This document shows positions 1 to 36,464 of a stretch of 36,464 nucleotides of DNA, piece by piece. The notes below the pieces were generated by a model that did not search any database, had not been told where the DNA came from, and was given only the letters and a program-made list of their open reading frames with translations. A program made the translations under genes and the position numbers. How positions within the stretch are numbered: position 1 is the first letter of the stretch; each line of letters begins with the position of its first letter. The DNA is from a virus: positions 1 to 36,464 of the IMG/VR virus record IMGVR_UViG_3300028920_000164; one strand, written 5' to 3'.

Positions 1-15
1 AGCTCAGTGTAAATT

Positions 16-57: not shown

Positions 58-81
58 TTTTTTGGCTAAAATTCAGGGCGC

Positions 82-709: not shown

Positions 710-784
710 CTATGAATCCGTATCCAGGAGCATGATCCCCAAGCCGATCAGAACCGCCGCCGTCAACAAGACTCTCTTCAGCAT
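710..784 (-). CDS. 24-aa single-pass membrane peptide
   Basis: A very short reading frame with a strong Shine-Dalgarno (GGAGG, 5-6 nt before the ATG at 782-784) placed 10 nt after the upstream gene's stop. The product begins MLKRVLLTAAVLIGLGIMLL and ends DTDS: positively charged start, about 16 hydrophobic residues, acidic tail, as in one-pass N-in membrane peptides. No homologue is recognised. The ribosome site and close spacing to the operon argue for translation. It could be a lysis accessory, a leader peptide, or an anti-superinfection peptide. Confidence 0.5.
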   Translation of the reverse strand: MLKRVLLTAAVLIGLGIMLLDTDS

Positions 785-794
785 GGCGCCTCCG

Positions 795-1756: not shown

Positions 1757-2046
1757 GGCGCCCCCCAGTCGAGGTGGCCGATCCCCAGGGCCTCCTTGGT
1801 AGACGCGTCCAGCGCCGCGATCGCGGCCAGCAGCAGGTCGCGCGCCTCGGCCTGGAGCTTGGCCTCATATTCAGTGTCGGCCTCCATATGCGCCTGCGCG
1901 TCCAGAAACATCGCCCGGTAGGTGTCGCGGCGGGGAAAGGCGGGCACGGCCTGCCCGGCCTCCACCAGGCCGGCGCGCACCTCGTTGTGGATCTTCTCCC
2001 TTAGCTTCGCCGTCACAGCCATTTCGACCTCGGTTAGGTCCGCCAT
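1753..2046 (-). CDS. Conserved-type helical tail-module protein, function unknown
   Basis: 97 aa from the ATG at 2044-2046 with GGGAGG upstream. A longer frame extends upstream but overlaps the preceding gene in Arg/Gly/Pro-rich shadow sequence, so it was not used. The protein is acidic and helical ('EVEMAVTAKLREKIHNEV', 'EYEAKLQAEARDLLLAAIAAL'). Its stop overlaps the next ATG. The position suggests a tail tip accessory or chaperone; nothing in the sequence fixes the function. Confidence 0.6.
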   Translation of the reverse strand: MADLTEVEMAVTAKLREKIHNEVRAGLVEAGQAVPAFPRRDTYRAMFLDAQAHMEADTEYEAKLQAEARDLLLAAIAALDASTKEALGIGHLDWGAP

Positions 2047-2057
2047 CTGCGCCTCCC

Positions 2058-3245: not shown

Positions 3246-3613
3246 TAGAGGTAGCCCTCCAGCTCGATCGTGCCCTTCAGTCGCGTGGCCGAGGGTTTCA
3301 CGTACTGCCGCAGCGGGGTCTCGTCGTTGACGATGTAGACGCTGTGCGTGGCGGTCACCCCGCCCGAGGTCACGAAAAGAAGAAGCGGCGTTGCCGTGCC
3401 CCACCAGGAGTTGACCAGCGCCGCCGCGCTGCCCGGGATGTCCTCGGCCTGCAGGCTGAAGCGCTCGTAGGCGCCCCACACGTAGCGATAAAGGTTTCCG
3501 GCCTTGGCGCGGTGTTCGCTCTTGATCTGCTTCTCGCCAAACCGCGAGGACCAGCCCAGGGTCAGCTCCACGGCCGTGGCGCTCGTCGGCCCGAGCTCGA
3601 ATTTCAGGCTCAT
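3245..3613 (-). CDS. Probable distal tail protein
   Basis: 122 aa; its ATG overlaps the tape-measure stop (ATGA) and its stop overlaps the next start (TAATG). It is a compact beta-rich protein ('SLKFELGPTSATAVELTL' and 'RLKGTIELEGYL') with a Trp/Tyr-rich centre. The gene immediately after the tape measure in siphoviruses usually encodes the distal tail or tip attachment protein, and the length fits a small version. No specific family motif could be verified. Confidence 0.5.
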   Translation of the reverse strand: MSLKFELGPTSATAVELTLGWSSRFGEKQIKSEHRAKAGNLYRYVWGAYERFSLQAEDIPGSAAALVNSWWGTATPLLLFVTSGGVTATHSVYIVNDETPLRQYVKPSATRLKGTIELEGYL

Positions 3614-5499
3614 GGCGCCACCCCCGCGGCCTTCAGGTTCCTAAGCGCCGGCACGATTTTCTCTTCGGCCAGGCTGCGCCAGTCGTGGCGCCCCATCGAA
3701 AGCAGCACTCCCAGCGTGGGGATCTCCACGTGCACGTGCACCTCCTGGTGCGCCACCGATATGGCCCCGCCGCCCGCGCCGCCTTCCAGGTAGTCGGTCA
3801 GGTCGCGGTTTTGCCGCGGAGAGAGCACGCGCTCGCCGCGGTCCAGCAGGTAGGTCTGCTCGCGCGGCACATAGCCCAGCCCGCCGTGGGCCTCACCCCC
3901 GTATTCGGCGCTTTTAATCGCCGCCACCCGCGCGGTGCCGTAGGCGATCGCCGCGGCCGCCGCGGCCACGCCCAGCGCCGGGCCGATGATCGGAATGCCG
4001 GCCATCGCCTTGTAGGCCGCGATCGCCGCCTCGTGGGTGTCCATCACGGCCTGGGCCGCCTGGATGCCCTTGGCCAGCTGGAAGCCCTTCTCCCCGAAAG
4101 CCTGCATATGCGTGTGCATGTCGGCCAGCGCCTTTTTCTGGTCATCCTGGCGCTTTTTGGTGTCCACGGCCTCGGCCTTGGCGTCCTTCTGCTTGGCGCG
4201 CTCCTGCTTCTCGGCCTGCTCTTCTTTGAAGGCCTCGAGCCATTCCAGGTAGCTCGCCGCGTTTTCCTGGCTGCGCGCGATCTCCTCGCCGGTGAAGGGG
4301 TAGATGCCCCGCTGCTCCTCGTCCATCTCCAGCTGCGGCTGGGCCGCCAGCTGCAGGTCGGCCAGCCAGCCCTTGGCCTGGTCCACGAACGCGCCCACGC
4401 GCTCCACGGCCAGGCCCTGGTTGGCCAGCCGGTCCAGCTCGGTGTAGGCCGTATCGCCCAGGCGGCGCATGTCCTCGATCGCCGCGGACGCGTCGCCGCG
4501 GAAGCGGTCCACCCCGGCCAGGGCCTCGTCGAACATGCCCCGGAAGTTGAGCGCCGCCATCATGTCGCGGGTCTTTTCTATCAGCCAGTCGATGCCCGTG
4601 ACCACGGCCTCCACCAGCGCCGCGAAGCCCAGCCGCAGCACCTGCCACACCATCTGCAGGCCCCGCCAGCTGTCCACCAGCAGCGCCCCGGCATAGGCCC
4701 CGTACTCGGCCAGCTTGGCCATCATCTCCACCCCCACCCGCGCCCAGTCCGCTATCTTCTCGCGGTTGTCCGCGATCCAGTAGGCGAAGTTGTTGAAAAA
4801 GCCCGAGAGCGTCGGCATCAGCCGCTCGGCGATCGTGTTGCGCACCCCTGCGAAGGCCATCTGCATGCGCGTCAGGCTGTCGTTGAACAGGGCCGCGCTC
4901 TGCCCGGCGTTCTCGCCCACCACCGTGCCGAAGCGGTCGGCCTCGGCCATCATGGCGGCCAGCCCCGCGGCGCCGCCCACGAAGAGCCGCTGCAGTTGGG
5001 CGCCCTCCTCGCCCAGGAGGGCCGCGGCCACCGCGCTGCGCTCGGTGGCGTTCTCCATGCCGGCGAACCCGTTGGCCATTTGGGGCAGGATCTGATCCAC
5101 GCTTCTTAGCTGCCCGTCGGCGTCGCGGGTCTCGATCCCCAGCCGCGCAAACGCCGCCGCTGCTTTAATGTTGCCGGCCTCGGCCTCCACCATCTGGATG
5201 GCGATCTTCTCCACGGCTTTCGCCGTGGTCTCGAACTTGACCCCCGAGAACTCGCTGGCCGCGGCCATGCGCGAAAGAAATCGCGTGCTTTGCCCGGTCT
5301 GGTCGGAGAGCTTCTGGATTTTGTCGTTGGCCTCGGCCGTCTGCTTGGCCAGGGCTAACACGGCCGCGCCGGCCGCGGTGATGCCGCCGGCCAGCGCCAG
5401 GAAGCTGGTTTTAAGGCCGGGCAGCTGCTCGCGGACACTCCCGAACACGCCCGAAAACTTGTCCCGCGCCTGAATTATGATTTCGACCTTGTCGCTCAC
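3610..5499 (-). CDS. Tail tape measure protein
   Basis: 629 aa starting at a GTG (5497-5499) with GAGGG 7 nt upstream. It opens with 'VEIIIQARDKFSGVF', typical of tape measures, then a hydrophobic segment at about 34-50, long helical stretches, another hydrophobic Ala/Gly-rich segment near 500-525, and a C-terminal 'YLLDRGERVLSPRQNRDL' module common in this family. It sets tail length and is ejected with DNA. Using the usual 0.15 nm per residue, the tail would be about 95 nm. It sits directly after the frameshifted chaperone pair, as in lambda. Confidence 0.9.
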   Translation of the reverse strand: MSDKVEIIIQARDKFSGVFGSVREQLPGLKTSFLALAGGITAAGAAVLALAKQTAEANDKIQKLSDQTGQSTRFLSRMAAASEFSGVKFETTAKAVEKIAIQMVEAEAGNIKAAAAFARLGIETRDADGQLRSVDQILPQMANGFAGMENATERSAVAAALLGEEGAQLQRLFVGGAAGLAAMMAEADRFGTVVGENAGQSAALFNDSLTRMQMAFAGVRNTIAERLMPTLSGFFNNFAYWIADNREKIADWARVGVEMMAKLAEYGAYAGALLVDSWRGLQMVWQVLRLGFAALVEAVVTGIDWLIEKTRDMMAALNFRGMFDEALAGVDRFRGDASAAIEDMRRLGDTAYTELDRLANQGLAVERVGAFVDQAKGWLADLQLAAQPQLEMDEEQRGIYPFTGEEIARSQENAASYLEWLEAFKEEQAEKQERAKQKDAKAEAVDTKKRQDDQKKALADMHTHMQAFGEKGFQLAKGIQAAQAVMDTHEAAIAAYKAMAGIPIIGPALGVAAAAAAIAYGTARVAAIKSAEYGGEAHGGLGYVPREQTYLLDRGERVLSPRQNRDLTDYLEGGAGGGAISVAHQEVHVHVEIPTLGVLLSMGRHDWRSLAEEKIVPALRNLKAAGVAP

Positions 5500-5512
5500 G
5501 CCTCCGCCCTCA

Positions 5513-6126
5513 CTATCTGCGCATGCCCTCGTACTCGTCCCGCAGAACGGCCAATATCCCCACCACCCGGTTGTCCTGCGCCATCACGCCGCCGGGTCCG
5601 GGCCACTCGCGCCGGGTGTAGCACTCGCCCCGTCTTTCGTAGCAGTCGTGGAACACGGCCAGCCACCAGTCGGCGGGCCGTCCGCAGACCGGCTCGCGCT
5701 GCGGCCGCCCGATGGTGGCGAAGCGGGCGGCCTGTTTGAGTTTTTTAGGTCGGCCGGGGTCAGCGCGCTGATGTCCGCCAGCCGGCTGGCGATATCGATG
5801 GCCAGCGGCATGCACGCGGCCGCCTCGAATACGGCCGCCGCGGAGGGCGTCTCGCCGTCGATCGTGAAACCCTCGATCCCTCGCACGTGATCGCCCACGT
5901 GTGGGGCGATGTCGTCCAGCAGCCGCCCCACCCCGGCGTAGACGGCGGCCACCGCGCCCTGGTCCGCCAGTCCGTTTGCGTCCATCTGGGCCAGCGCCGC
6001 GAACGTCTCCTGGTGGGCCATCAGCAGCAGAAACGCGCCGCGCGTCAGCGGGCGCAGCTGCATGCGAACCTCCGCCCCGTTGAAAGTGGTGGCGTAGTCG
6101 CGCCACTCCGTGACAATGTCAACCAT
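5513..6126 (-). CDS. Tail assembly chaperone GT-type, -1 frameshift product
   Basis: Ribosomes starting at 6126 read 129 codons, slip -1 on A AAA AAC (plus-strand 5740-5746), and continue in a second frame from 5740 to the stop at 5513, giving about 204 aa. The second frame ('LKQAARFATIGRPQ' to 'LRDEYEGMRR') has no start of its own near the site and ends 13 nt before the tape measure start. The stimulatory hairpin is a perfect 9-bp stem, 5703-5711 with 5724-5732, beginning 7 nt after the slippery site. This matches the conserved G/GT arrangement, in which the fusion recruits tube subunits to the tape measure. Slippage is predicted, not shown. Confidence 0.85.
5584..6126 (-). CDS. Tail assembly chaperone G-type, unshifted product
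   Basis: 180 aa in the zero frame from the ATG at 6124-6126. Residues 1-129 ('MVDIVTEWRDYATTFNGAEV', 'LTRGAFLLLMAHQETFAALA', 'ACMPLAIDIASRLADIS') form the helical chaperone domain shared with the frameshift product. Residues 130-180 are Pro/Ser/Arg-rich and probably unstructured. It binds the tape measure during tail assembly and is absent from virions in studied phages. Its place between the tube gene and the tape measure gene supports the call. Confidence 0.8.
   Translation of the reverse strand: MVDIVTEWRDYATTFNGAEVRMQLRPLTRGAFLLLMAHQETFAALAQMDANGLADQGAVAAVYAGVGRLLDDIAPHVGDHVRGIEGFTIDGETPSAAAVFEAAACMPLAIDIASRLADISALTPADLKNSNRPPASPPSGGRSASRSADGPPTGGWPCSTTATKDGASATPGASGPDPAA
5703..5746 (-). 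promoter_or_regulatory. Programmed -1 frameshift signal (slippery heptamer plus hairpin)
   Basis: On the coding strand the order is AAAAAAC (5746 down to 5740) in frame CTA AAA AAC, a 7-nt spacer, then GGCCGCCCG pairing with CGGGCGGCC across a 12-nt loop. Heptamer, spacing and GC-rich stem all fit known -1 signals. It joins the two chaperone frames at the point where both show coherent protein sequence. Confidence 0.9.
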
Positions 6127-6146
6127 TCAGCACCCCCTGGCGTCGG

Positions 6147-7112
6147 TTAGTAGGCGGCCATCGTATTCACCAACGTGAACTGGGCCGCGTAGCTGCTCGT
6201 CGTGTCGTACGTGGCCTTGGCCGAGAATCCCACCTCGATCAGACCCACCCCGCCGATATTGGCCGGGAATTCGGTGTAGCGCATGGCCGGGAAGTCCCCC
6301 GCGAGCTGATTGTGGGCGCCCATCACCGTGGACGGATCCGTGGCCGTGATCACCATGCGCTGGGCCTCGCGGTCGCGGTACTTGCGCGCCTGGGTGTCGC
6401 CCTCCAGGAGCATCGTGCCCGCGATCTCAACCGTGCGGCTGCCGTTGCGCAAAATGCGGTTGTAGCTCCGCGTCGTGTCCAGGTAGGCCTTGCCTTCGAG
6501 CGCGTTGTTCATCGTGATCGTGAAGTTGCCCACCCCGTCCACGGCCGCCTGTGCCAGCGACACCGAGCAGGTGTCCCACGTGTAGTAGCTGCCCGGCAGG
6601 TAGCTTGGGGTCAGCTTGTTGCCCCAGGCGAATCCCGCCCCCATCAACCCCAGGGTGCATTTGTAGAAGGCCCCCTGGGCGATCTCGAGGGTCAGCTGGT
6701 TGGCCACCACGTCGTAGTAGCGGTAGGCGCTGCCCGTGTCGCGATAAATCTCCAACGTCATGGGCGGCACCGCGCAGCGCCCCGCGTCCCAGTCGTCCTC
6801 CAGGCCCACGAAGATGTGGCGGTAGCAGCTGCCCACGTAGCCGTCCTGCGAACTCTGGCCGAAATAGGCTTTAAGAAGCTTACCCACCAGCAGCGGGTGC
6901 ACCTCCATCACGATGTCGCCCTCCACCGAGGCCATGCCCGGGTACTCGTCCGGCTCGTCGATCCGCGCCGTGATGCCCTCGCTGACCAAACTTTCGATCT
7001 TCTCGGTCACGCTCTCGCTGATGAACGGAACGTAATCCATCGAAGACACGTTCAGCGTGCCGAACGAGTCCTGGAAGCTGATCCCTATATGCCCACCCTG
7101 TCCGTAAGCCAT
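6147..7112 (-). CDS. Major tail tube protein
   Basis: 321 aa, ATG at 7110-7112 with AAGGAG 7 nt upstream. It begins 'MAYGQGGHIGISFQDSFGTL', contains 'SESVTEKIESLVSEGITARI' and ends in a beta-rich 'VGLIEVGFSAKATYDTTSSY' region, matching the tube proteins of siphophage-like Mu relatives. It lies between the tail terminator and the chaperones, the expected slot. It polymerises around the tape measure to form the noncontractile tube. No sheath gene accompanies it. Confidence 0.75.
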   Translation of the reverse strand: MAYGQGGHIGISFQDSFGTLNVSSMDYVPFISESVTEKIESLVSEGITARIDEPDEYPGMASVEGDIVMEVHPLLVGKLLKAYFGQSSQDGYVGSCYRHIFVGLEDDWDAGRCAVPPMTLEIYRDTGSAYRYYDVVANQLTLEIAQGAFYKCTLGLMGAGFAWGNKLTPSYLPGSYYTWDTCSVSLAQAAVDGVGNFTITMNNALEGKAYLDTTRSYNRILRNGSRTVEIAGTMLLEGDTQARKYRDREAQRMVITATDPSTVMGAHNQLAGDFPAMRYTEFPANIGGVGLIEVGFSAKATYDTTSSYAAQFTLVNTMAAY

Positions 7113-7131
7113 TTTAACTCCTTGCCTGGTG

Positions 7132-7560
7132 TTAGGTCCGGGCCTCGCAGATCACCGTGATCATGGCCCGGTGCCACCATTTGTCGTCCTCGACGTTGAC
7201 CTCGTAGGCCACCTCGTAGCCCAGGGTCGTCCCCACCGTGCCGCCCAGCTTGCGGTCGGCCATCAGCAGCGTCATTACGGCCACCTTACTGTCCTCCAGC
7301 AGGTCCTCGGCCGCCGCCGCGCTTTCCATGCTGGCGCGCTGTACCTCCACAACCGGCCGCGCGATCAGGCGCCAGGGCGAAGCGCCGCCCACGGCCAGCG
7401 GCTCGTAGGCCTCGTCCCCGCGGTAGATCCCCACCCATCCGCGGTAGGCCTTGCCCGCCGACTCGTTGCGCCGCGGGTTGCGCACCACGGTGTGCTCCTG
7501 CGGAAGCCCGGCCGCCAGAATTGTCTCGATCGCCGCCGTCACCTGGCCCTGGTCAAACAT
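7132..7560 (-). CDS. Tail terminator-like / head-tail connector protein
   Basis: 142 aa, ATG at 7558-7560 behind GGGAGGG. An alpha/beta protein opening 'MFDQGQVTAAIETILAAGLP', with a central 'LIARPVVEVQRASMES' strand-helix and a beta-rich C terminus ('GYEVAYEVNVEDDKWW'). Size, fold style and position between the gpG-like protein and the tube gene fit lambda gpU / Mu gp37-type terminators that cap the tail and join it to the head. Confidence 0.6.
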   Translation of the reverse strand: MFDQGQVTAAIETILAAGLPQEHTVVRNPRRNESAGKAYRGWVGIYRGDEAYEPLAVGGASPWRLIARPVVEVQRASMESAAAAEDLLEDSKVAVMTLLMADRKLGGTVGTTLGYEVAYEVNVEDDKWWHRAMITVICEART

Positions 7561-7581
7561 CCGGCCCTCCCATCGTTACGG

Positions 7582-7746
7582 TCAGCCCGCAGTGCGGGCA
7601 GTGGCGCCGGGGATCCACAAACCCGCCCCGCGGCAGGCCGGGCACACCTCGCGCCTCCAGATGCGCCACCAGGCCGCCTCGGGGGCTCGCATGTGGCCCC
7701 TTCCGCGGCAGCGCTTGCAGCGCCAGTAGAATCGCTCACTTTTCAT
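7582..7746 (-). CDS. 54-aa DnaJ-type zinc-finger protein
   Basis: The ATG at 7744-7746 overlaps the upstream stop (ATGA). The protein holds two CxxCxGxG elements, 'CKRCRGRG' and 'CPACRGAG', separated by 25-26 residues, so it should fold as one zinc site like half of the DnaJ cysteine-rich domain. Overlapping longer frames here are Gly/Arg/Pro-rich shadows. Its position among head-tail joining genes suggests an assembly accessory or a small regulator; the partner is unknown. Confidence 0.7.
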   Translation of the reverse strand: MKSERFYWRCKRCRGRGHMRAPEAAWWRIWRREVCPACRGAGLWIPGATARTAG

Positions 7747-8201
7747 CGGATGCTCACCCCCACGAAGCGCTTGAAGATCTTGACCAGCACCGGCGCGATC
7801 TGCTCCTCGCTCGGCAGGATCGCGCGCCGGGGCATTTTTTGGGTGCCCGTCTGGTGGTAGCGCGCGTAATCCACCCCGCTCTGAATGCTGGCCCGCGTCG
7901 CCGTCCAGGTGCGCTTCCATCGGCTGCGCATCTGTCCACTGTCCTGGAGGATGCGCTGGCCCGCGTCCGTGTTGGCCCCGCGCCGCCGCGCCCGCCGCGT
8001 GGCCGGCGCCAGCGGCGCCCACCCGCCGTCCTGGGCCAGGCCGCCCTCTTGTTTAAAATTCTGCTGGACCCAGCGGTCTACGGCCGCCACCGCACGGGCG
8101 TTTGTGGCCCGCCGGTTGGCCAGGCGCTGGCGGCGGGCGGCCATTGCGCGCTGCAGCGCCGGCAGCCCCAGCAGGGTCATATGGATGGGCCCGGTCGCCA
8201 T
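7743..8201 (-). CDS. Phage virion morphogenesis protein (Mu gpG-like, Phage_tail_S)
   Basis: 152 aa, ATG at 8199-8201 overlapping the upstream stop (TGATG). The Arg-rich N-terminal half is followed by 'ASIQSGVDYARYHQTGTQ' and 'MPRRAILPSEE', the signature of the virion morphogenesis family acting in tail completion or head-tail joining. The C-terminal 'APVLVKIFKRFVGVSIR' helix is also typical. Length is normal for the family. Confidence 0.8.
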   Translation of the reverse strand: MATGPIHMTLLGLPALQRAMAARRQRLANRRATNARAVAAVDRWVQQNFKQEGGLAQDGGWAPLAPATRRARRRGANTDAGQRILQDSGQMRSRWKRTWTATRASIQSGVDYARYHQTGTQKMPRRAILPSEEQIAPVLVKIFKRFVGVSIR

Positions 8202-8650
8202 CAGTCGCGCTCGTCCGCCTCGTCGTCCAGCCGGTCCGGGTCGACGAACTCGTCCTCCGCGTCGCCCATCCCCCGCACCGGGTGGTAGTCCTGGGTCGTG
8301 CTCCAGATCTCATCGCCCGGCGCCTCGGGCACGATCACCGTGCCGCTGCCCGTCATCAGCTGCTCGTCGCCGTTCTTGATCGCCGCGATGCGCCCCTCGA
8401 TCGCGTCCTTGATCAGGGCCGCCCGTTTGGGGTCCTGGGTGCGCAGGCTGCGGTAGTAGGTCAGGTCGATCACCAGGTCCATCACCGTGGGGTGCGCGGC
8501 CGAAAAGGGCACGCTGAAATGGCTGGCCATGCGGCTGTTGAGTTCGTGCGCGGCGTAGTAGATCAGATCGCTGTTGACCGACGTTGCCATCCCCGGCCAG
8601 CCTTCCAGCTCGGGGTAGCGCCGGACCGCGTCTTCATAGGTGATATACAT
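8201..8650 (-). CDS. Mu gp36-like head-completion protein (DUF1320)
   Basis: 149 aa from the ATG at 8648-8650, which overlaps the glycosyltransferase stop as TAATG. 'MYITYEDAVRRYPELEGW', 'VNSDLIYYAAHELNSRMASH' and 'VIDLTYYRSLRTQDPKRAAL' match the DUF1320/gp36 family of helical head-tail connector proteins. The acidic C terminus ('EDEFVDPDRLDDEADERD') is unremarkable. In Mu this gene closely follows the major capsid gene; here the large transferase gene is interposed. Confidence 0.75.
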   Translation of the reverse strand: MYITYEDAVRRYPELEGWPGMATSVNSDLIYYAAHELNSRMASHFSVPFSAAHPTVMDLVIDLTYYRSLRTQDPKRAALIKDAIEGRIAAIKNGDEQLMTGSGTVIVPEAPGDEIWSTTQDYHPVRGMGDAEDEFVDPDRLDDEADERD

Positions 8651-11538
8651 TAGTAATATTTCTCCCCGTAGGGTTTGAGCTTCGCGCCCACCAGGTGCGC
8701 GGCCAGGCCCTCGGCGTCCTGTGGGTCCAGGAACACCGCGACCAGCGGCTTGCGCCCCAGCTGCGGGCCGCCGTTGCCGGCCGCCGTGGCCTCCAGATCG
8801 AGCGCGAACTGCAGCCGGCCGCCCAGCGCCGCAGCCACCGTCGAGTAGTAGGGCAGGCCCTCCACCACCAGGCGGGTCTCGCCCGCCGCCAGCAGGTCGC
8901 GCCAGATTTTGACGGCCTCCTGGGCCTGCGCGATGTCGGCCGCCCGGCCGCGCTCGGCGTCGTAGCACGATAGCTGGGCGATGTCGCGCAAGTACAAAAA
9001 CTGGCCCAGGCGCCGCTCCGGGAAGCGCCGCCGGTCCTCCTGCATCAAAGGCCAGTTGCGCTCGAAGCGCTGCCGGCGCACGGCCTCGGTGGCGTAGCCC
9101 GTGTGCATGATCCACACGTCCGGCAGGATCATCACCTTGCCCGGCCCCTGGTTCAGGGCCGTCTCGGGGTGCTCGTGCACGTGGCCGAAAAACGTGATGC
9201 CGCGACAGTTGCGAAACAGGCGCGCCGGAAAGTCGGTCTTGACCAGGCCGGCCGGCTCGGCCGAGTGGTGCTGCTGGGGCACCCCGTAGGCGTCGTAGCA
9301 GTTGGGCCGCAGCCATTTCGCGAGTTCGTCCGCGTTTTCCAGGGTCTCGTCGCAGTCCAGCCACAGAATCCAGTCCATGCGGGCTTTCTCGATCGTGGCG
9401 TTGCGGGCGCGGTCGAAACCGGTCGCCAGCGGGCTCGCGATCGGGAAGCATTGCGCCCCGAATTCGCGGGCCACCTCGGCCGTGGCGTCCGTGGTCTCAT
9501 AGTCAACCCCCACGATGATCTCGTCCGCGATATCGGCAACCTTCTCCAGGCATCGGCCGATGTTGTGCGCCTCGTCGCGCGCGATCAGGCACACGCTTAC
9601 GGTCTCCCGCGGGGCCTGCTGCCGGTGCTTGCGCGCGTAGTCGACCGCCCCGATCCGGGCCGCGCCATTCTCCGGGCGCCGGAAGGTGGTGATGAAGTGC
9701 CCCAGCCCGGCCGCGCGGGGCAGCGCCATTGTTTTGTAGTCCGGCAGCTGGCCGAACAGCTCGAAGAGATCCGCGCGCTCCATGTGGTGCACGTGCGCCC
9801 GCCAGCCCGGGTGTCGCGCGTAGCCGATGGCCTCCCACGGCCCGTAGGGTGTCGTGACCACCAGAGTGCCCCCGGGCTTGAGCCGCCGCAGCAGCCGGCT
9901 CACGGTGGCCGCCGGGTCGGCCACGTGTTCCAGCACCTCGCAGGCCAGCACGCAGTCGAACTCCTTCCCGATGCTCTCCAGCGCGGACTCATCGCCCACG
10001 TGGAAGCGCACCCGGTCGCCCAGCCCGGCGTCCTTGGCCCAGCGGCGGGCCGTGGCGATGTTGCGCTCGGAGATGTCCACGCCCACCAGCTCGACGCCGG
10101 GCAGGCGCGCCGCCAGGTTGATCGTGTAGTGCCCGTGGGCGCAGCCGTAGTCCAGGATGGTGGCCGCCTCCGGGATGGCTGCCTGCACGATCGCCGCGGT
10201 CTGCTCGAAGCGCGGCTCACCCGCGAGATCCTCGGGGCCGTAATCGGCCCCGCGCGCGGCCTCGTAGGCGTAATAAGCCGCATAGTGCCCGGTGTAGTCG
10301 CCCGACAAAAAAAAGTTATAGTTGCGCGCAAAACCCGGCAGCCGCGCCTCGACCGCCTCGGGGTCGTCTCCGGCGCTGTGCAGCAGCGCGCGGACGTCGC
10401 TCATCCGCTCGTAGTGGCGCGCCAGCCGCACGGGGTTGTCGCTCTTGGCCGCCAGCAGCGCCTCGAACTGGCCCTCCCACTCCTCCGCGATCGCGTCCCA
10501 GCCCTGCCTTTTCTCCAGCGCCCGGCGGTGCATTTTACGCCAAAGGTCGTCGTCGCCGCACACCTGCCGGATCTCATTGATAACGGCCTTGATGTCCACC
10601 GCCCCGTTCCGTAGCGGCACCAGCGCGGCCCCGCCGCCGGCGGCCGTCTCCGGGATGGCCGCGTGCGCGCAGCCGATCACGGGTGTGCCAGCGGCGAGGG
10701 ACTCCAGCACCAGGATGCAGCTCGTGTCCTCGAACACCGTCGGGTAGCAGTAGACCTGACAGCTGGCCAGCAGCTTGTAGAGTTCGCGCTTGCCGAGCGC
10801 CCCGTGGCGCGTCACGTTGGCCATCGCGTCGCATCGGCCCCACACCCAGCGGTAGAATTCCGCCATCGCCGGCACGGTGTTGTCGTAGCCCGCCACGTGC
10901 AGATGATAGTGGCTCCCCAGGCGCTCCATGATCCCGTCCGGCCCCACCAACTCGGTCAGGCCGCGCTCGGGCCGCGCCGCGAAGCAAATATGCTTGCGCC
11001 GTCGTGGCCGTCTACGGCCCATGAAGACCTGGTAGTCCACCCCGTTGGCCGTGGCGTGGATGTGGTTCTCCGGGATGCCGTAGACCGCGCCCACCTGGTG
11101 CTTGTGAAACTGCGAAACCGTGAACACCCGGTCGATATTGGCCAGCGCGCCGGCCACCGCGGCCGCGTGCCGGCCCAGGGCCAGGTCGTGCAGCCACCAG
11201 ATGTTGACTTTGGTGTTGTACTCGCTCCGGAAGGCCAGCGGGTGGCGCTGGCAGATCAAAACGTCGTGCGGCGCCTGCAACACGAGGGCGAAGCGCTCGC
11301 CCAGCGGGAAGCGTTCGCTGACCGGCCCGTGCCAGGCGTAGGTCACCCCATCCGTGCGCTTCCCGGTTTCGAGCCAGGCCGCACTCGTGAACACGGTCAC
11401 GTGGTGGCCGCGCGCGGCCAGCGCGCGGGCCATGTAGTAGGCGGCGGACTCGCTCCCACCCAGGCTTTTCCCGGAGCGGATCGTCTCCCCGTCGAACGGC
11501 ATCCCCCCGGCGTAAATGGCAATAAACATGATCGGCAC
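8650..11538 (-). CDS. Trifunctional glycosyltransferase GT4 - methyltransferase - glycosyltransferase GT2
   Basis: 962 aa. Residues 1 to about 385 are a GT4-type GT-B glycosyltransferase ('GGSESAAYYMARALAARGHH' near the start, 'CILVLESLAAGTPVIG' in the nucleotide-sugar region near 272). About 430-600 is a class I SAM methyltransferase ('ILDYGCAHGHY' motif I near 458, 'LACEVLEHV'). About 640-860 is a GT2 domain ('VSVCLIARDEAHNIG', with DxD-like 'WLDCDETLE' near 725). The last 100 residues are helical, then basic. Its stop overlaps the gp36-like start, so it is embedded in the head operon rather than a separately transcribed insert. Substrate is unknown: capsid or tail protein glycosylation or host surface glycan change are both possible. 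Confidence 0.85.
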   Translation of the reverse strand: MPIMFIAIYAGGMPFDGETIRSGKSLGGSESAAYYMARALAARGHHVTVFTSAAWLETGKRTDGVTYAWHGPVSERFPLGERFALVLQAPHDVLICQRHPLAFRSEYNTKVNIWWLHDLALGRHAAAVAGALANIDRVFTVSQFHKHQVGAVYGIPENHIHATANGVDYQVFMGRRRPRRRKHICFAARPERGLTELVGPDGIMERLGSHYHLHVAGYDNTVPAMAEFYRWVWGRCDAMANVTRHGALGKRELYKLLASCQVYCYPTVFEDTSCILVLESLAAGTPVIGCAHAAIPETAAGGGAALVPLRNGAVDIKAVINEIRQVCGDDDLWRKMHRRALEKRQGWDAIAEEWEGQFEALLAAKSDNPVRLARHYERMSDVRALLHSAGDDPEAVEARLPGFARNYNFFLSGDYTGHYAAYYAYEAARGADYGPEDLAGEPRFEQTAAIVQAAIPEAATILDYGCAHGHYTINLAARLPGVELVGVDISERNIATARRWAKDAGLGDRVRFHVGDESALESIGKEFDCVLACEVLEHVADPAATVSRLLRRLKPGGTLVVTTPYGPWEAIGYARHPGWRAHVHHMERADLFELFGQLPDYKTMALPRAAGLGHFITTFRRPENGAARIGAVDYARKHRQQAPRETVSVCLIARDEAHNIGRCLEKVADIADEIIVGVDYETTDATAEVAREFGAQCFPIASPLATGFDRARNATIEKARMDWILWLDCDETLENADELAKWLRPNCYDAYGVPQQHHSAEPAGLVKTDFPARLFRNCRGITFFGHVHEHPETALNQGPGKVMILPDVWIMHTGYATEAVRRQRFERNWPLMQEDRRRFPERRLGQFLYLRDIAQLSCYDAERGRAADIAQAQEAVKIWRDLLAAGETRLVVEGLPYYSTVAAALGGRLQFALDLEATAAGNGGPQLGRKPLVAVFLDPQDAEGLAAHLVGAKLKPYGEKYY

Positions 11539-17318: not shown

Positions 17319-18770
17319 TCACCCCGTCTGGTGGGCCATGTCGTCGGCCCCGCTCTCGGTTTCTCCCTGTCCCATCGCTTCGTCCCAGTTGCCGGCCGGC
17401 CCGCTGGCCGCGTGAATCGCCAGGGCCAACGCCCAGAAGCGGTCCGCGTGCCCGCCCGGCCCCCGGTCGGCCTCGAAGCGCAGGTTGCCGGCCGCCGTGG
17501 TGGTCTTTTTGATGCTACGCAGGTCCGCCCGGATCGCGTCGGACCGCGGGATCCGGATCGCCTTGTCCTCGAAGGCCGCGCGCACCGGGTAGGCCAGGGC
17601 CTCCTTGACCGGCCCTAAAAAGTTGACGCCCTCCACCCGGTAGGCCCCGAACTTCTCCTGGGCGCGCTCGGCGAACTGCCGCCCGAGCCCGGTTTCGTCG
17701 ATGCAGGCCCGCCGCATGTTTTCAAGCCCCAGCAGGGGATAGAGCTCGCCCTCCTGGGTCGAGAATTTCTGGTTCTGCAGCTCCGCCACCAGGCGCGTGA
17801 AATACATCCCGCCGGTCTTCTCCAGAACCCAGATCACGGTCAGGTCCGTGGTGCGCCCGATGTCCACCCCCGCGTACAGGCCGTCCAGCACGCGCCGGTC
17901 GTCCATCGTGCCGTCGCGCCCCATCTCCCAGGCCGTGGTCGCCGCATACTCGCACCCCGCGATCAGGTCGTAGGAGAGGAAGGCCCCGGCGTCGTCGGCC
18001 GCCACGCACTGGAACTCCTGCAGGAACTGCTCCTCGCTGGCGCAGCCCGCGCGGATGAAATCGAAATAGGCGGCCTCGTCCATCGCCAGCCGCTCGTCGT
18101 CGGCCGGCAGCGCCTGCTGCAGCTTGTAGAGAAAACCCTGGTCCAGGGCGTCGGCCAGCGTCACCGTGTGCAGGGAGAATCCCTTGGGGTTGCCCCGGTG
18201 CTTCGCGTCCTCCACCAGCTCGTTGAAAAAGTTGGCGCTCCCGCGGTGGGTGGAGAAGATCTCCAGCTGCCCGCCCCAGGTGATGCCGGGGTAGGCGATG
18301 GAATAGAGCTGGCGCGGGTCCGGGTGCAGCGCGAACTCGTCCAGCACGCGCCCGCCGCGCTTGCCCGCCTGGGCGTTGGGATTCGAGCTCATGGAGTGGA
18401 TCCGCTTGCCGTTGGCGAACTGCAGCACGTAGGCCGAGATTTTGCGCTCCGGGTCGATCACCACCGCCCCCAGGTCCTGGGCCGCCGTGTCCAGGATCTG
18501 CGCGAAATACTTGCAGTCCTCCAGGAACAGCCGCGCCTGGATCTCGTCGCGCGAGGAGATCCACTGGTCGTTCGTGTTCTCGCGCGGGGCCGTGCGCTCC
18601 ACCGTGGCGTAGCCCGAGCACCAGGTCCACCCGATCTGGCGGCTCTTCTCGCCCAGCTTGAGCCGGCTTTTATCCTCGATCCAGCGCCGCTGGAAGGGCA
18701 GAAAAAGCCGCTCCGGATCGGGGGGCAGGATCTTGGCGTTGCCGCGTTTATGGGTGCCGGTGGCCGTCAA
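17319..18770 (-). CDS. Terminase large subunit (Mu gp28-like)
   Basis: 483 aa starting with TTG (18768-18770). The N-terminal ATPase has 'LGEKSRQIGWTW' as the Walker A-like motif near 38-50 and 'GGRVLDEFALHPDP' as Walker B near 143. The C-terminal nuclease has acidic residues in 'GVDIGRTTDLTVIW' (about 299), 'ACIDETGLG' (about 356) and 'GGHADRFWALALA' (about 449). It packages phage DNA into heads. Its start and ribosome site lie within the left copy of a 38-bp direct repeat; at the right copy the same TTGA is the stop of TerS, so the two genes were formerly contiguous. Confidence 0.9.
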   Translation of the reverse strand: MTATGTHKRGNAKILPPDPERLFLPFQRRWIEDKSRLKLGEKSRQIGWTWCSGYATVERTAPRENTNDQWISSRDEIQARLFLEDCKYFAQILDTAAQDLGAVVIDPERKISAYVLQFANGKRIHSMSSNPNAQAGKRGGRVLDEFALHPDPRQLYSIAYPGITWGGQLEIFSTHRGSANFFNELVEDAKHRGNPKGFSLHTVTLADALDQGFLYKLQQALPADDERLAMDEAAYFDFIRAGCASEEQFLQEFQCVAADDAGAFLSYDLIAGCEYAATTAWEMGRDGTMDDRRVLDGLYAGVDIGRTTDLTVIWVLEKTGGMYFTRLVAELQNQKFSTQEGELYPLLGLENMRRACIDETGLGRQFAERAQEKFGAYRVEGVNFLGPVKEALAYPVRAAFEDKAIRIPRSDAIRADLRSIKKTTTAAGNLRFEADRGPGGHADRFWALALAIHAASGPAGNWDEAMGQGETESGADDMAHQTG

Positions 18771-18794
18771 AGTTTAAGCTGCTCCCGGATGCTC
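18757..18794. repeat. 38-bp direct repeat, left copy (boundary of inserted cassette)
   Basis: A perfect 38-bp copy of 22714-22751, starting CCGGTGGCCGTCAAAG and ending CCCGGATGCTC. It contains the TerL start codon and ribosome region, and remnants of the TerS C-terminal codons that are no longer used here. The last cassette gene stops 1 nt outside the repeat. Confidence 0.95.
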
Positions 18795-18795
18795 A

Positions 18796-19074
18796 TCATG
18801 ATAGGATACCACCAACGGTTACGGATACGATCTCGGACGACCCGCGCCACGTAGCTATATCAACGTAGGCCTGCACCGTCCATCTGCCCTCGATGTCAAT
18901 ATCTCCATCAACCGTGATGTACTCCACGGCACCGTCAACTATCGCGGCATCTCGGGTGATAACTGTGCGGTTCGGCTTTTTGAGTCGCAGTTGTACATCG
19001 GTAGCGCCCGACAAGCTGGTGCCGTCATCAGGAACAATACGTATTTTCGTCCCAACGTCTCCAACGTGTATCAT
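18796..19074 (-). CDS. Fibre/baseplate accessory protein (BppU-N-like)
   Basis: 92 aa, start overlapping the fibre stop (ATGA at 19071-19074), last gene of the inserted cassette. 'MIHVGDVGTKIRI', 'SGATDVQLRLKKPNRTVIT' and 'EYITVDGDIDIEGRWTVQAY' match the small Ig-like beta-sandwich fold seen in tail-associated proteins such as the BppU N-terminal domain. It probably caps or links the fibre. Lower GC than the surrounding phage genes. Confidence 0.6.
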   Translation of the reverse strand: MIHVGDVGTKIRIVPDDGTSLSGATDVQLRLKKPNRTVITRDAAIVDGAVEYITVDGDIDIEGRWTVQAYVDIATWRGSSEIVSVTVGGILS

Positions 19075-21701
19075 GTGTTTACTCCCGCAAATTGCGCTTC
19101 TAGCTCTACCGTTTGCGTGAACGATGCACTCAGGTTGACCACCTCGTATACTGCGCCGATGATTAATGAAGGGGCACTGATGTCTGATAGCGCTGCGATC
19201 CCGCTGACTGTAAGTAGATGGGTCTGCCCAAAAGTAGGCAAATCTATTACAACTTCACCGATCAGGTCGGCGCCGTCGATGACATGTACCTGGCCGATAG
19301 TCGGATCGTCTACGGTTGACGCAGAAGCTAAATCCTGCCCGGTCAGCGGATCAACATCAGCAACAGCCAGGAGCACCGGGAGGTCGACAGCAGTCAAAGA
19401 AGCGAGGTCTGCGCCGGTCAATTGGTGTTCCTGCTCGATGGTCGGCGCGTCGATTGCGGTCAGCGCCACAAGATCAACGCCGGTCAGCGGGTCCACACCG
19501 GCCACGTCCTCAACAGTTGGCGAATCAAATATCGTGGCGCAAGCAATTTCGGTCCCGGTAAGCGCGTGCTCCTGTCCTATCGCAGGCGCGTCAAGGGCCG
19601 ATTCCGCAGAAACGTCTTCGCCAGTTAGTGCGTGCTCCTGGCCGATTGTCGGGCTATCGATGCTGGTAACAGAGGCGAGGTCCGTTGCGGTAAGTTCGTC
19701 GGTACCCCCACCAATATCAGTGATCGACCCCCACGTCAGGAAACCGGAAGTGTTTAGCTGATTGTGGTAGTTTGCCTTGATCCAGGCCGAACTGCGCGCC
19801 ACCGTGCTAAAGCGCATCTCGTCAATGGTACCGTCAAGATCCCTTTCGCCAACACCGGCGTTCCCCCATTTAAGCGTATCGGCAGTATCTTCTGGAACCT
19901 GAGATTGATCCACGAAAGATGTGCTAAACACAGACTCTGAGCCGTCTAAATAAATAGACCGCCTAACGTTGTGATCCCACCGCGCTACGCAGTGACGCCA
20001 ATTAGTGTTATTCATACTGTCAGTCGGCGTCGATATTAAATTTTCGCCAGCGATGCTGCCTTGGTGTTGCACCATAAACGACAATACATTCTCGTTTCCT
20101 GACTGGGGACCATCACCGACAAGGTTATCGTGCCAAAACAAAATCGGCGCACCCCAGTAGTGTTCCGCGCCCTTCAGCGCAATATCATTGTCGTTTTCGA
20201 GGTCGTTAAGCTTGACTAACGCCTCAACCGTGAAATCTATTTGAGGGACAATTTCGGTTACATCGGATGGCGTGTCGTACGTCTGCGAAGTGCTCCCCGC
20301 AAAACTCTGCCCTTTCCCTACTTGCGCATCGACTTCCGTGCCTTGATTTTCGCTGGGTTGTGAGTAGCTCGCACTGCACCGGTTGTATCCAGCCGCGCCG
20401 TCAGTACCCGGATAAACGATAACATGATCCGAGTCATAAGCATTGTACTGGCCGTAAGTGCTGTTTGCCAACGGTTGCGATTTCCCCGCCTTGCCCCACC
20501 ACATGTAAATCGTGGTGCTGGCGCTGGACGAAACCAATGGAACCTTGACCGCTACTTCACAGGCTGCATTGCCGGGCGTGTTGTCTGTTGACCAACTTCG
20601 GATATCGACAGGCAGTTGATTCGATCCGTCACTGTCCGAAGAAAAGCGAATGTCTCCCCCGCCGTCGATCGACGCCCTAGTGCCGTCGGCGTCCAGAGGT
20701 CCGTTGACCTGCGTGAGTACAGCGTCGAACCCTTCATCGAAAACGAGAGTCCAGTCGGTAAGGTCCGCGTCAATATCGGTGTGATCTATGGTTATCGCAA
20801 CTTTATGCAACCATCCGGTGGGGAAGTCCTCGTTCAGTGCCGGCGCGCCAAAAGAAGTCGCCGAGGCAAGGTCCGTCCCGGTAAGCGCGTGCTCCTGGCC
20901 GATAGTCGGCGAGTCAACGGCCGTGACCGACGATAGGTCTGCGCCTGTCAGCTCATCGTCACCACCCCCGGTTGTCGGCGGTGCGTCCTTGTAGGGGTGA
21001 TCGACCGGCAGGTTGCCTTCCAGCCCGAACAGATGCGCGAAATAGCCCTCATAATTTTGCCGACTTGCGGTATCAATGCTGGTTGTCATCCACATGGTGC
21101 CGCATGCGCCGTCAAGTGATCTGTTGTCGTTCCTGTTCTCAAACATCCTTAAAGGTACTGGCGTACTAAGGTCTATTAGATATGTTGTCGAACCGACTTG
21201 CACGCCATCAATGTGCATCGACACAAGGTTATTAATTCTGTCAAAAGTGAAAGTAAGAATATGCGGTCCATTGTATGGCCCGCCGCTTGGAGTGAAATTA
21301 GACATGCACTGTCTAGCTGATATTGCCGCAAGGAAATTTGAAGCGTTACCAGCTTGGATTTGCCAATCACTAGAGCCACTAACAGACATAATTGGCTCAT
21401 ATATGCTGCTAATACTGTCTACACGGTAGACAATACCAAACATTACCTCGGTCGGAATTGGTGTGCTTAGACGTTCTAAACCGTCATCCGCACCATCAAA
21501 TGCTAAAACATCAATGCCGCCGATGCTTTGGTCTACGGTCGGTTGTGCAGCGGCAACCACTTGCGACAGATCAAGCCCGTTGCCAGACTTGTCTGCAATA
21601 GCCTCGACAGTCCCGCCGTTCATTGTCAGCGTCGTGGCGTCAGACGGCAGCCAGTAGCCTTCGAGTCCCGCATCATCGTTTTCCGGGAGCCATACTGCCA
21701 T
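19071..21701 (-). CDS. Tail fibre / adhesin with LamG-like and DUF2341 domains and a repeat array
   Basis: 876 aa. About 1-240 is a LamG/concanavalin-like domain ('AIADKSGNGLDLSQV', 'LTFTFDRINNLVSMHIDGVQ'). About 293-440 is DUF2341 ('WLHKVAITIDHTDIDADLTD', 'TTIYMWWGKAG'). About 455-655 is a second LamG ('IDFTVEALVKLNDLEND', 'HCVARWDHNVRRSIYLDGSE'). A degenerate 22-25-residue unit, LTGxDLASxTxxDxPTIGQEHA-like, occurs twice at about 248-290 and about eight times at 666-850, so the second domain pair appears inserted into the array. No signal peptide. It probably binds a surface glycan as a receptor-binding protein. GC is visibly lower than in the rest of the phage. Confidence 0.75.
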   Translation of the reverse strand: MAVWLPENDDAGLEGYWLPSDATTLTMNGGTVEAIADKSGNGLDLSQVVAAAQPTVDQSIGGIDVLAFDGADDGLERLSTPIPTEVMFGIVYRVDSISSIYEPIMSVSGSSDWQIQAGNASNFLAAISARQCMSNFTPSGGPYNGPHILTFTFDRINNLVSMHIDGVQVGSTTYLIDLSTPVPLRMFENRNDNRSLDGACGTMWMTTSIDTASRQNYEGYFAHLFGLEGNLPVDHPYKDAPPTTGGGDDELTGADLSSVTAVDSPTIGQEHALTGTDLASATSFGAPALNEDFPTGWLHKVAITIDHTDIDADLTDWTLVFDEGFDAVLTQVNGPLDADGTRASIDGGGDIRFSSDSDGSNQLPVDIRSWSTDNTPGNAACEVAVKVPLVSSSASTTIYMWWGKAGKSQPLANSTYGQYNAYDSDHVIVYPGTDGAAGYNRCSASYSQPSENQGTEVDAQVGKGQSFAGSTSQTYDTPSDVTEIVPQIDFTVEALVKLNDLENDNDIALKGAEHYWGAPILFWHDNLVGDGPQSGNENVLSFMVQHQGSIAGENLISTPTDSMNNTNWRHCVARWDHNVRRSIYLDGSESVFSTSFVDQSQVPEDTADTLKWGNAGVGERDLDGTIDEMRFSTVARSSAWIKANYHNQLNTSGFLTWGSITDIGGGTDELTATDLASVTSIDSPTIGQEHALTGEDVSAESALDAPAIGQEHALTGTEIACATIFDSPTVEDVAGVDPLTGVDLVALTAIDAPTIEQEHQLTGADLASLTAVDLPVLLAVADVDPLTGQDLASASTVDDPTIGQVHVIDGADLIGEVVIDLPTFGQTHLLTVSGIAALSDISAPSLIIGAVYEVVNLSASFTQTVELEAQFAGVNT

Positions 21702-21716
21702 TTTGGTTTTTACTCC

Positions 21717-22310
21717 TTAGACCTGTGTCCATCCGAACACGCCGGGTTCAAACACATTGTTACCAGCGCCATCGGCTTGAGTGACTTCCCAAGTCTGACC
21801 ATTGTGAGTCACTCGATCAGGTTCACCCGTAAAGGGGTTTACCAGCTTGTAAGCGCCAAATTGGTCTAACGGCTGAACCCACGGCGCGATCTCCCCAGGC
21901 ACCATAGCCCGCCTGACAAGGGCAGGCACGGCAGTTGGATCAGGCCAGATAGCGGTGTCATATTGCTGGATCACTAACCAGTAAGCGCCATCGTCATCAA
22001 CATGGAGGCCGGGATTGACCAATCCTTCCAGCGGCAATGCATTGCCCGCCCACTGGCCCTGTATCGCGGTCAGAACATCGTTCACGCGGTCTTTCGGATT
22101 GCCCGTCGTTTCGGACCATGAGACCCCGGTTATTCCTTTCACGGCGTCGGCAAAGCCAAGCGGCTCCCACGCATGCAACGTCGCGTGGGTCGGACCCGCG
22201 CTTGTGGTATACACCTCGACGCCAAAATTACGCGGGCCGAAACCTGCCGCCTCAAGCGCGGCGTTAACCGCATCCATCTGATCAATAGTAACACGTGCGG
22301 AAATGGCCAT
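21717..22310 (-). CDS. Receptor-binding accessory protein with CBM5/12-like C-terminal domain
   Basis: 197 aa with AGGAA 6-7 nt before the start. The N-terminal part ('TIDQMDAVNAALEAAGFGPR') resembles small tail proteins of unknown role. The C-terminal 55 residues ('VQPLDQFGAYKLVNPFTGEP', 'RVTHNGQTWEVTQADGAGNN', 'FEPGVFGWTQV') match the Trp/Tyr-rich chitin-binding-like CBM5/12 fold found at the tip of phage fibres. It belongs to the inserted cassette and probably supplies glycan binding. Confidence 0.7.
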   Translation of the reverse strand: MAISARVTIDQMDAVNAALEAAGFGPRNFGVEVYTTSAGPTHATLHAWEPLGFADAVKGITGVSWSETTGNPKDRVNDVLTAIQGQWAGNALPLEGLVNPGLHVDDDGAYWLVIQQYDTAIWPDPTAVPALVRRAMVPGEIAPWVQPLDQFGAYKLVNPFTGEPDRVTHNGQTWEVTQADGAGNNVFEPGVFGWTQV

Positions 22311-22320
22311 TTGTTATTCC

Positions 22321-22680
22321 TTACGTCGGGTCACGCAGCTCAATGTCGATCGCCGTCAAAGTGAACGTGTTGCCACTCGTCACGGACTGCGATGAGTCCA
22401 GCGCACCGGCCGCCAGCAAAGTCGCGCCATCATCCAACGCCCAATGGCTAGCCGTTCCTGTTGCAGTGACGCTCCCGTCGGTGATTGCGTCGATGGTGAT
22501 TTTCCGCCCGCTGGTGGTGCCGTCCGCCGGTCCCGTGAAACTCGGAGACGATTTACTGCCAAGCGCTACGCCGGAAATACCAGCGTAGTTTGCCGGCTCG
22601 GATGAACAGATCGTCAACGTCGTTCCGTTGTCAATTTCGCCAAGTGCTGCGTCGAATACTGAATCGCCTAATTTTCCCAT
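22321..22680 (-). CDS. Small beta-rich phage structural protein of the fibre cassette
   Basis: 119 aa, first gene of the cassette, with GGGAGG 6 nt before the ATG. 'MGKLGDSVFDAALGEIDNGT', 'RKITIDAITDGSVTATGTAS' and 'SGNTFTLTAIDIELRDP' are characteristic of a small protein family that accompanies fibre genes in many tailed phages. It is probably a virion or tail-tip component. No enzymatic motif. Confidence 0.65.
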   Translation of the reverse strand: MGKLGDSVFDAALGEIDNGTTLTICSSEPANYAGISGVALGSKSSPSFTGPADGTTSGRKITIDAITDGSVTATGTASHWALDDGATLLAAGALDSSQSVTSGNTFTLTAIDIELRDPT

Positions 22681-22713
22681 TTGTTCCTCCCTATGGCGTT
22701 TTGTTTGATCAAA

Positions 22714-22751
22714 CCGGTGGCCGTCAAAGTTTAAGCTGCTCCCGGATGCTC
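22714..22751. repeat. 38-bp direct repeat, right copy (boundary of inserted cassette)
   Basis: Identical to 18757-18794. Here it encodes the functional last eight codons and stop of TerS; the TTGA inside it would have been the TerS-TerL overlap before insertion. Distance between copies is 3957 bp. Confidence 0.95.
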
Positions 22752-26472: not shown

Positions 26473-27527
26473 GGTCGACCTCCCGCGGATGCCATTTTAA
26501 TCAGCCGCACGGACGGCTGCCGGGCATTCCACCGTCGCATAAGGCGCAACGCCTTGATCGGGATGTCGGGCCCGCCAGCGGCCATCCAGGCGGCCACCGT
26601 TTTCCTTTTGCTGCGGCCGGTGATTCCGGCCACGTTTTCGGCCGTCAGGCCATGCCGCTGGACGATGGCCAAAAACTCCTCCTGCGCGGCCGAAACGACC
26701 GGCGTTTTCGTTTTGGCCGCGTTTCGGCCGTTTTGGCCGTTTTCGGCCGTTTCAATACTGGTGCGGGTTGGCCGCGTTTCGGCCGTTTTCGGCCGCGCAC
26801 TTTCGGCCGGATCGGCCGATCCGGCGGCCGTTTGGATTTCGGCCGTTTTGGCCGTTTTCGGCCGTCCGGCCGGCCAGGCGGCCGACGCGGCCACGGCCAG
26901 GCCGAGCCCCAGGGGCTCCATCACGCAGACCAGGATCGCCACCAGCATGAGCATGGCCCGATCGGCGGGTACGCCGGCCAGGTGGGCCAGGGCGGCCACG
27001 GGACCGGCCTCGGCCCTGGCGGACACCTGGCCGGTGCGCAGGTCCTGCAGGCGACCTGTGACCGACAGGAGCTCGGCCTGCAGCGCGTCGTAGCCCGCGG
27101 CCTCGCGCTCGCGGATCCGCCGGGTGACGTATCCCGGCGGAAGGCCGGCCAGGGTGCTGTCGATCGTTTCGATGCGGTCCCGGAGAATGGTCTGGCGGGC
27201 CGCGAGGCCGTCGATTTCGGCTGAAGCCCGCGCCAGCCCGGCGACCCCCTGCTGGTGGCCCTGGATGAGATACCCGGCCGCTTCGATGGCCGTGAGGCCC
27301 ACCAGGACCGCGATCACCGCCATGTAAAAGGCGCGCCCACCGATCGGCAGCCGGTCCCAGGCGCGGTGCAGGTGGATCACGCAGGCCAATTTGCCCAGCT
27401 CCATACCGGTCGCCAGGCAGGCGATGACAGCCGATGCCCCGAACAGCGCCATCAGGCCGCCAACCGACATATACGCGGTCGTGCCCCAAACGAGGGTCAG
27501 TGACAGGGATAGTAAAATGCGATGCAT
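26469..27527 (-). CDS. Multi-pass membrane protein with coiled coil and low-complexity TAE-rich region
   Basis: 352 aa. Hydrophobic segments near 5-24, 27-45, 66-90 and 192-215 flank a coiled coil at about 100-175 ('ASAEIDGLAARQTILRDRIE'). Residues 220-275 are low complexity (KTAKTAEIQTA, KTAETRPTRTS, ETAENGQNGRNAAKTKT). The C-terminal 75 residues look like a small HTH-like domain ('GLTAENVAGITGRSKRKTVA'). A membrane sensor or exclusion protein is conceivable. No family recognised. Confidence 0.6.
   Translation of the reverse strand: MHRILLSLSLTLVWGTTAYMSVGGLMALFGASAVIACLATGMELGKLACVIHLHRAWDRLPIGGRAFYMAVIAVLVGLTAIEAAGYLIQGHQQGVAGLARASAEIDGLAARQTILRDRIETIDSTLAGLPPGYVTRRIREREAAGYDALQAELLSVTGRLQDLRTGQVSARAEAGPVAALAHLAGVPADRAMLMLVAILVCVMEPLGLGLAVAASAAWPAGRPKTAKTAEIQTAAGSADPAESARPKTAETRPTRTSIETAENGQNGRNAAKTKTPVVSAAQEEFLAIVQRHGLTAENVAGITGRSKRKTVAAWMAAGGPDIPIKALRLMRRWNARQPSVRLIKMASAGGRP
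26690..26880. repeat. CGGCCG/GGCCGTTTT-rich simple repeat inside a gene
   Basis: GGCC recurs around twenty times in this stretch, largely as TTTCGGCCGTTTTGGCCG-like units, encoding the TAE/KTA-rich region of the membrane protein. The repeat is degenerate and in frame. It is probably a slippage-prone coding repeat. Confidence 0.7.
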
Positions 27528-36134: not shown

Positions 36135-36155
36135 GTGATCAAGCCGATCACTTTT
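36135..36155 (+). terminator. Intrinsic terminator overlapping an end repeat
   Basis: GTGATC-AAGCC-GATCAC followed by TTTT. The 6-bp stem and T-run would end rightward transcription of the structured RNA. The last two stem bases and T-run are also the first bases of the inner right-end repeat (36150-36170). Confidence 0.6.
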
Positions 36156-36170
36156 CTGAGATAGTGTGCA
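36150..36170 (-). repeat. Inner right-end transposase-site-like repeat
   Basis: Inverted copy of the 21-bp left-end unit with one difference (GTGTGCA for GCGTGCA), 180 bp inside the outermost right copy. Confidence 0.8.
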
Positions 36171-36201
36171 AATTTTTGATTTTTAAACCCCAAATCCGGC
36201 A

Positions 36202-36211
36202 ACTTTTCTGA
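36202..36211 (-). repeat. Partial right-end repeat
   Basis: ACTTTTCTGA matches the first 10 bases of the inverted end unit and then diverges. It lies between the two complete right-end copies and may be a degenerate third site. Confidence 0.4.
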
Positions 36212-36280
36212 TTTTTAGTATACACAAAACCTTCGGTCGCAGAATCCAAGGCAATAGATTGTAAGCCGATGTAATCTCAG

Positions 36281-36310
36281 CCAATCCAGCCCAATCCCAG
36301 CCAATCCCAT
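36281..36310 (+). repeat. Three 10-bp CCAATCC repeats
   Basis: CCAATCC begins at 36281, 36291 and 36301, exactly one helical turn apart, 20 bp inside the outermost right-end repeat. Such phasing suits a DNA-bending or architectural protein site; it may also be chance. Confidence 0.5.
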
Positions 36311-36329
36311 CCCAAAACACACCAAATCA

Positions 36330-36350
36330 ACTTTTCTGAGATAGCGTGCA
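36330..36350 (-). repeat. Outermost right-end repeat
   Basis: Perfect inverted copy of the 21-bp left-end unit, ending GCGTGCA at the boundary with host coding sequence. AATT follows outside, as it also precedes the left end. Confidence 0.9.
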
Positions 36351-36351
36351 A

Positions 36352-36464
36352 ATTAATAGCAAGCACGCCTTCTCGATCGCGGACAATGCCCTGCATATCG
36401 AACAGGACGGCAAGATCGCCAAGTTTGTGGAGCGGGTCGACCAGTTGACCTTCAGCGGCAAGCA
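36352..36464 (+). CDS. Interrupted host gene, 3' fragment: YdiF-like acyl-CoA:acetate CoA-transferase
   Basis: The frame reads LNSKHAFSIADNALHIEQDG then KIAKFVERVDQLTFSGK to the window edge without a stop. Family members of the YdiF/propionate CoA-transferase type have a similar 'GKLxIxxEGKxxKFxxxVEQITFxG' segment in the C-terminal half. The frame begins at the prophage edge, so the prophage probably interrupts this gene. The 15 bp left of the prophage are too short to confirm the 5' part. Confidence 0.6.
   Translation, partial: MNSKHAFSIADNALHIEQDGKIAKFVERVDQLTFSGK

Follow-up and report, generated by a model that had tools for sequence, protein, structure and literature searches.

Organization of the phage and of the terS-terL locus

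The window, by which we mean the whole stretch of DNA analyzed, is one IMG/VR contig of 36,464 nt and comprises a B3-like transposable phage of the Mu type that is almost complete. It encodes a Mu-type transposase and its ATPase, Gam, GemA, a Mu-type portal and a B3-type large terminase (TerL) that is 62% identical to that of phage B3. Apart from the insert described here, the gp27-gp28-gp29 order of B3-like phages is kept. The end site expected for such a phage is present in four copies, two per end, with inverted copies of GCACGCTATCTCAGAAAAG at both ends. Because inverted end sites stand at both ends, the window essentially corresponds to the whole phage, and the tail module at 1-8200 is therefore complete and not cut off. 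Host DNA probably makes up the final ~110 bp of the contig. The structural genes are oriented leftward. Among the head genes of the late operon, terS and terL are separated by a cassette of 3.9 kb with four genes of low GC. The features that we refer to are the following.

11-56, plus strand: phage end, two tandem copies of the end site (TTGCACGCTATCTCAGAAAAG), from the sequence
17319-18770, minus strand: terL, B3-type terminase large subunit with Terminase_6N/6C domains, intact, TTG start within the repeat
18757-18794, no strand: direct repeat, terL-side copy, 38 bp, with the terL upstream region, TTG start and first codons, and an orphan terS tail
18767-18799, minus strand: mini-ORF MMSIREQLKL, whose ATG overlaps the P0001 stop (ATGA); the orphan terS tail read in frame, stopping on the terL start (TTGA)
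18796-19074, minus strand: P0001, 92 aa, last cassette gene, predicted beta-sandwich (structure model)
19071-21701, minus strand: P0002, 876 aa, fibre-like, with a Laminin_G_3 (lectin-like) domain and repeated LTG/PTIGQEH units
21717-22310, minus strand: P0003, 197 aa, whose C-terminal part recurs in several other phages; a carbohydrate-binding hint is weak and below threshold
22321-22680, minus strand: P0004, 119 aa, first cassette gene, PHROG 240 neck-whisker-like (profile and predicted fold)
22668-22727, minus strand: 19-codon frame from the orphan terL start to the beginning of P0004, from the sequence
22714-22751, no strand: direct repeat, terS-side copy, 38 bp, with the last 8 codons of terS and TGA, and an orphan TTG start with the first terL codons
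22724-23263, minus strand: terS, Mu gp27-type terminase small subunit, intact (domain/profile match)
36150-36354, minus strand: other phage end, two inverted copies of the same site, from the sequence

The composition of the cassette differs from that of its neighbors. Its genes have a GC content of 0.53-0.58 and a GC3 of 0.55-0.65, compared to a GC3 of 0.93 in terS and terL, in line with the lower GC described in the initial annotation. Likewise as described there, neither a transposase nor a recombinase, as a transposon or insertion element would carry, was seen among the four cassette genes. No reverse transcriptase, as a diversity-generating retroelement would need, was present among the genes scanned, which were part of the window's ORFs. 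Promoter and terminator scans of the cassette gave no signal above chance. The repeated units of P0002 are terminal, and a search with P0002 yielded no match in viral contigs or plasmids. Sequence searches against solved structures returned no match for P0002, P0003 and the P0004 profile and a non-significant one for P0001; for the whole cassette no donor was found at the DNA level. Elsewhere in the window, a small ORF at 251-637, located between the tail module and the phage end, has a signal-peptide-like start and no PHROG match, and the stretch 26713-26866 contains exact direct repeats of the TTTCGGCCGTTTTGGCCG type, 29 and 22 bp long.

A 38-bp direct repeat spans the terS/terL junction

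The cassette had been described as bounded by a perfect 38-bp direct repeat. Indeed, the two copies are exact and lie 3957 bp apart. No other exact direct repeat in the window is as long, the longest repeats in 20 Markov controls were 14-19 bp, and the 38-mer was unmatched in shuffled sequence. The repeat contains the last terS codons, TGA, the overlapping terL TTG and the next terL codons, and both the stop codon of terS (22724-22726) and the TTG start of terL (18768-18770) fall within it. It thus spans the whole terS/terL junction and both genes are therefore intact, as had been claimed from the repeat's content. Joining the flanks in silico gave the expected empty site, at which terS and terL overlap by TTGA. 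The flanking repeat is direct, and the cassette is not bounded by an inverted pair, as a Mu G-type invertible segment would be. Judging from the sequence, the two short frames at the cassette borders may serve to keep translation coupled across them; an in-frame start at such junctions could equally be a chance product.

The contig stems from an assembly-based virus collection and the composition changes sharply at the cassette ends, so that one might suspect an artefact in which the cassette of another phage was joined at a common 38-bp word. However, the 38-mer is found on both sides with different outer flanks, and the flanking genes are intact and in phase. An artefact would moreover require a foreign piece that ends in the phage's own terS-terL junction, and repeats of 38 bp are resolved by modern assemblers. 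We regard faulty assembly as very improbable.

The insertion is a derived state among related phages

Relatives were collected via terL and comprised 80 viral and 53 genomic loci, plus two phage records. terS and terL were directly adjacent in 100 of the 125 measured pairs, the largest gap being 760 bp. The two genes overlapped by 1 bp in 50 and by 4 bp in 40 of 128 pairs (together 90/128). No cassette was found between terS and terL in the relatives' pairs examined, and P0004 and P0002 were absent from the 50 relative contigs searched whole, bar one weak P0004 match. Since the relatives' pairs are adjacent and free of a cassette, the insertion is derived in this lineage. So far it is unique among the relatives examined, even the nearest of which reach no more than 76% TerL identity; records highly similar to the window may be outside the searches. 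The empty site that the initial annotation had proposed to look for in relatives is hence the rule, mostly with overlapping genes, which agrees with its view of a module acquired through a junction-duplicating event. At one locus (L001, 1361-1475) low-complexity AAACGCGA/AAACGCAA-like units part terS from terL.

The same annotation had regarded the cassette as a swappable host-range module, perhaps reversible through the 38-bp repeats; on this reading the cassette would be exchanged repeatedly at the site. The cassette is a self-contained adhesion-type gene set, and its identical, directly oriented 38-bp copies could recombine; recombination between direct repeats through short homology is established. 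The search for different cassettes at the same site did not bear this idea out, because no alternative cassette was found in the relatives' terS-terL pairs examined. Furthermore, the 24-bp core of the repeat had no match in any other viral contig, and the cassette has no recombinase. At 54 other loci with a P0004 relative, a set that includes near-duplicates and some loci clipped at contig ends, no flanking direct repeat above chance was found, the longest exact repeat being 16 bp. Because these 54 loci have no flanking repeats, the repeat belongs to this insertion and not to the module. Recurrent exchange at this site therefore appears quite unlikely.

P0004 resembles neck-whisker proteins in family and predicted fold

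In a profile search P0004 matched PHROG 240 (E 1.7e-6). Its structure model (pLDDT 91) matches the neck chain 9c39_K of phage Sf14 (E 9e-5, TM 0.72/0.78), and connector chains of Bas63 also match the model. Chain 9c39_K is Sf14 FDI99_gp126, which falls in PHROG 240 as P0004 does and is listed as the whisker protein gp31 of Sf14 (PMC11821841). The whisker reading rests on the common PHROG and the fold, because the P0004 profile gave no significant match when compared directly with the single Sf14 gp31 sequence. Given the family and the predicted fold of P0004, the cassette is better described as a neck-whisker module than as a set of tail receptor-binding genes. P0004 would accordingly be predicted to assemble at the neck, and family and fold suggest that the cassette may bind sugars. 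The label "receptor-binding", under which the cassette was initially described, is plausible but putative, and the best-supported attachment site is the neck and not the tail tip.

These genes might also encode extra tail-tip or baseplate fibres instead of neck whiskers. P0001 weakly resembles baseplate beta-sandwich domains (80alpha, NF5), P0002 is fibre-like, and the fiber I chain of phage GP4 is a weaker fold match for P0004. In addition, the related module in an unrelated phage contig (L213, see below) comes after a large possible tail gene. However, neck and connector chains are the best fold matches of P0004, and the phage has its own short tail-tip genes, which are related to those of sister phages that showed no such module. 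We consider a location at the tail tip or baseplate rather unlikely.

Two sister phages, G051 and G052, were compared with the window. G051 has the portal, capsid, tail and a glycosyltransferase-methyltransferase gene in common with it (about 38-66% identity), and its contig gave no cassette match. Despite the homologous portal, capsid and tail, its terS-terL pair (L154, 3810-5826), which is overlapping, is unrelated to that of the window; this points to an exchange of the whole terminase module. G052 has the window's tail module, which likewise ends in a short tip gene. The idea that the cassette stands in for a missing tail fibre was rejected, since the same tail module of the sisters also ends in a short tip gene. 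Going by this comparison, the cassette is an addition and not a substitute for a lost fibre.

The window encodes a 962-aa fused glycosyltransferase-methyltransferase-glycosyltransferase gene (8650-11538) between capsid and adaptor (8201-8650), inside the head genes. It is an older resident, because it is also found in G051 (52%) and G052 (37%). A duplicated junction like that of the cassette was found neither around this inserted gene nor around the spacer in L038. The G052 relative of the tail protein P0008 (L152, 8456-10948) is twice as long and has an extra internal stretch, which resembles a lectin-type domain that was inserted into a tail hub protein.

Relatives of the module in other phages

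P0004 relatives occur in many unrelated phages, where their upstream neighbors include portals, head-tail adaptors and fibres. A B3-type terminase was found in none of the 28 records with a P0004 relative that were examined. The contig L213 has the same four-gene layout, with 67% identity for P0004 and 44-45% for P0001. In a second contig, L212, the end of P0002 and P0001 are found at 74% DNA identity directly ahead of tail genes, and the similarity stops before the repeat. The tube genes of L212 and of the window both belong to PHROG 290. Directly after the P0001 relative, L212 carries an apparent broken start of a tape-measure gene (476-720). We take the L212 fragment as a sign of another recombination at the module edge.

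The closest characterized counterparts in terms of P0004 are the neck whiskers of the Shigella phage Sf14 (gp30/gp31; PMC11821841) and the connector of phage Bas63. P0004 and gp31 have PHROG 240 and the predicted fold in common, and both are encoded in the head-gene region. Sf14 is a myophage, however, with its whisker genes directly after the portal gene, whereas the module in the window has a lectin-like fibre and sits between terS and terL of a Mu-type phage. The Anabaena phage A-1(L) likewise has a small neck-fibre unit of several genes, which in its genome is set apart from the remaining structural genes (PMC10966104). Its neck fibres are chains of beads and their distal module showed no host binding (PMC10966104). 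The likeness to the window considered here is one of arrangement. In Octadecabacter DB virus 2 and Roseobacter phage CRP-6, P0004 relatives also lie directly ahead of fibre or tailspike genes, but these are native modules that adjoin tail-tubular or portal genes and have no flanking repeat.

As foreign low-GC genes between two conserved phage genes, the cassette genes also resemble phage morons. Classical morons bring their own promoter and terminator. The cassette, in contrast, has neither of them above chance, and its junction is duplicated. A literature search found no description of the arrangement reported here.

A junction-copying recombination as the likely origin of the cassette

Taken together, we propose, with a probability of roughly 0.62, that a B3-like transposable phage acquired this four-gene neck-whisker (collar-fibre) module from a different phage group by a recombination that copied the gene junction. 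A single duplication-forming event would have left 38 bp on each side, such that terS retained its tail with the stop, while terL retained the region upstream of it, the TTG start and its first codons. Selection would account for the exact extent of the repeat, because an insertion without copying would break one of two essential genes. The repeat thus probably reflects selection together with one duplication-forming recombination. Illegitimate recombination, template switching and integration of a circle through 38-bp homology would all be suitable routes, and these are indistinguishable from one sequence. The module would then be transcribed together with the neighboring genes, with P0004 rooted at the neck and the lectin-like P0002 as the exposed, probably sugar-binding part. 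The cassette appears to be an instance of genes acquired by a phage, and not a mobile element of a new kind.

A far-reaching extension would be that neck-whisker modules in general are mobile, self-contained cassettes that enter overlapping gene pairs by junction duplication, with the orphan gene ends acting as coupling ORFs that keep the operon translated. We give little credence to this generalization. What this work adds is the identification of the cassette as a neck-whisker module and the argument that selection accounts for the duplicated junction. Capture by junction copying would show how foreign genes can be taken up as a block between two tightly overlapping essential genes without damage to either. 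It would furthermore connect a family of phage neck fibres that has received little study with the exchange of modules among unrelated phages, and the duplicated gene junction would provide a simple signature to seek in other phage genomes.
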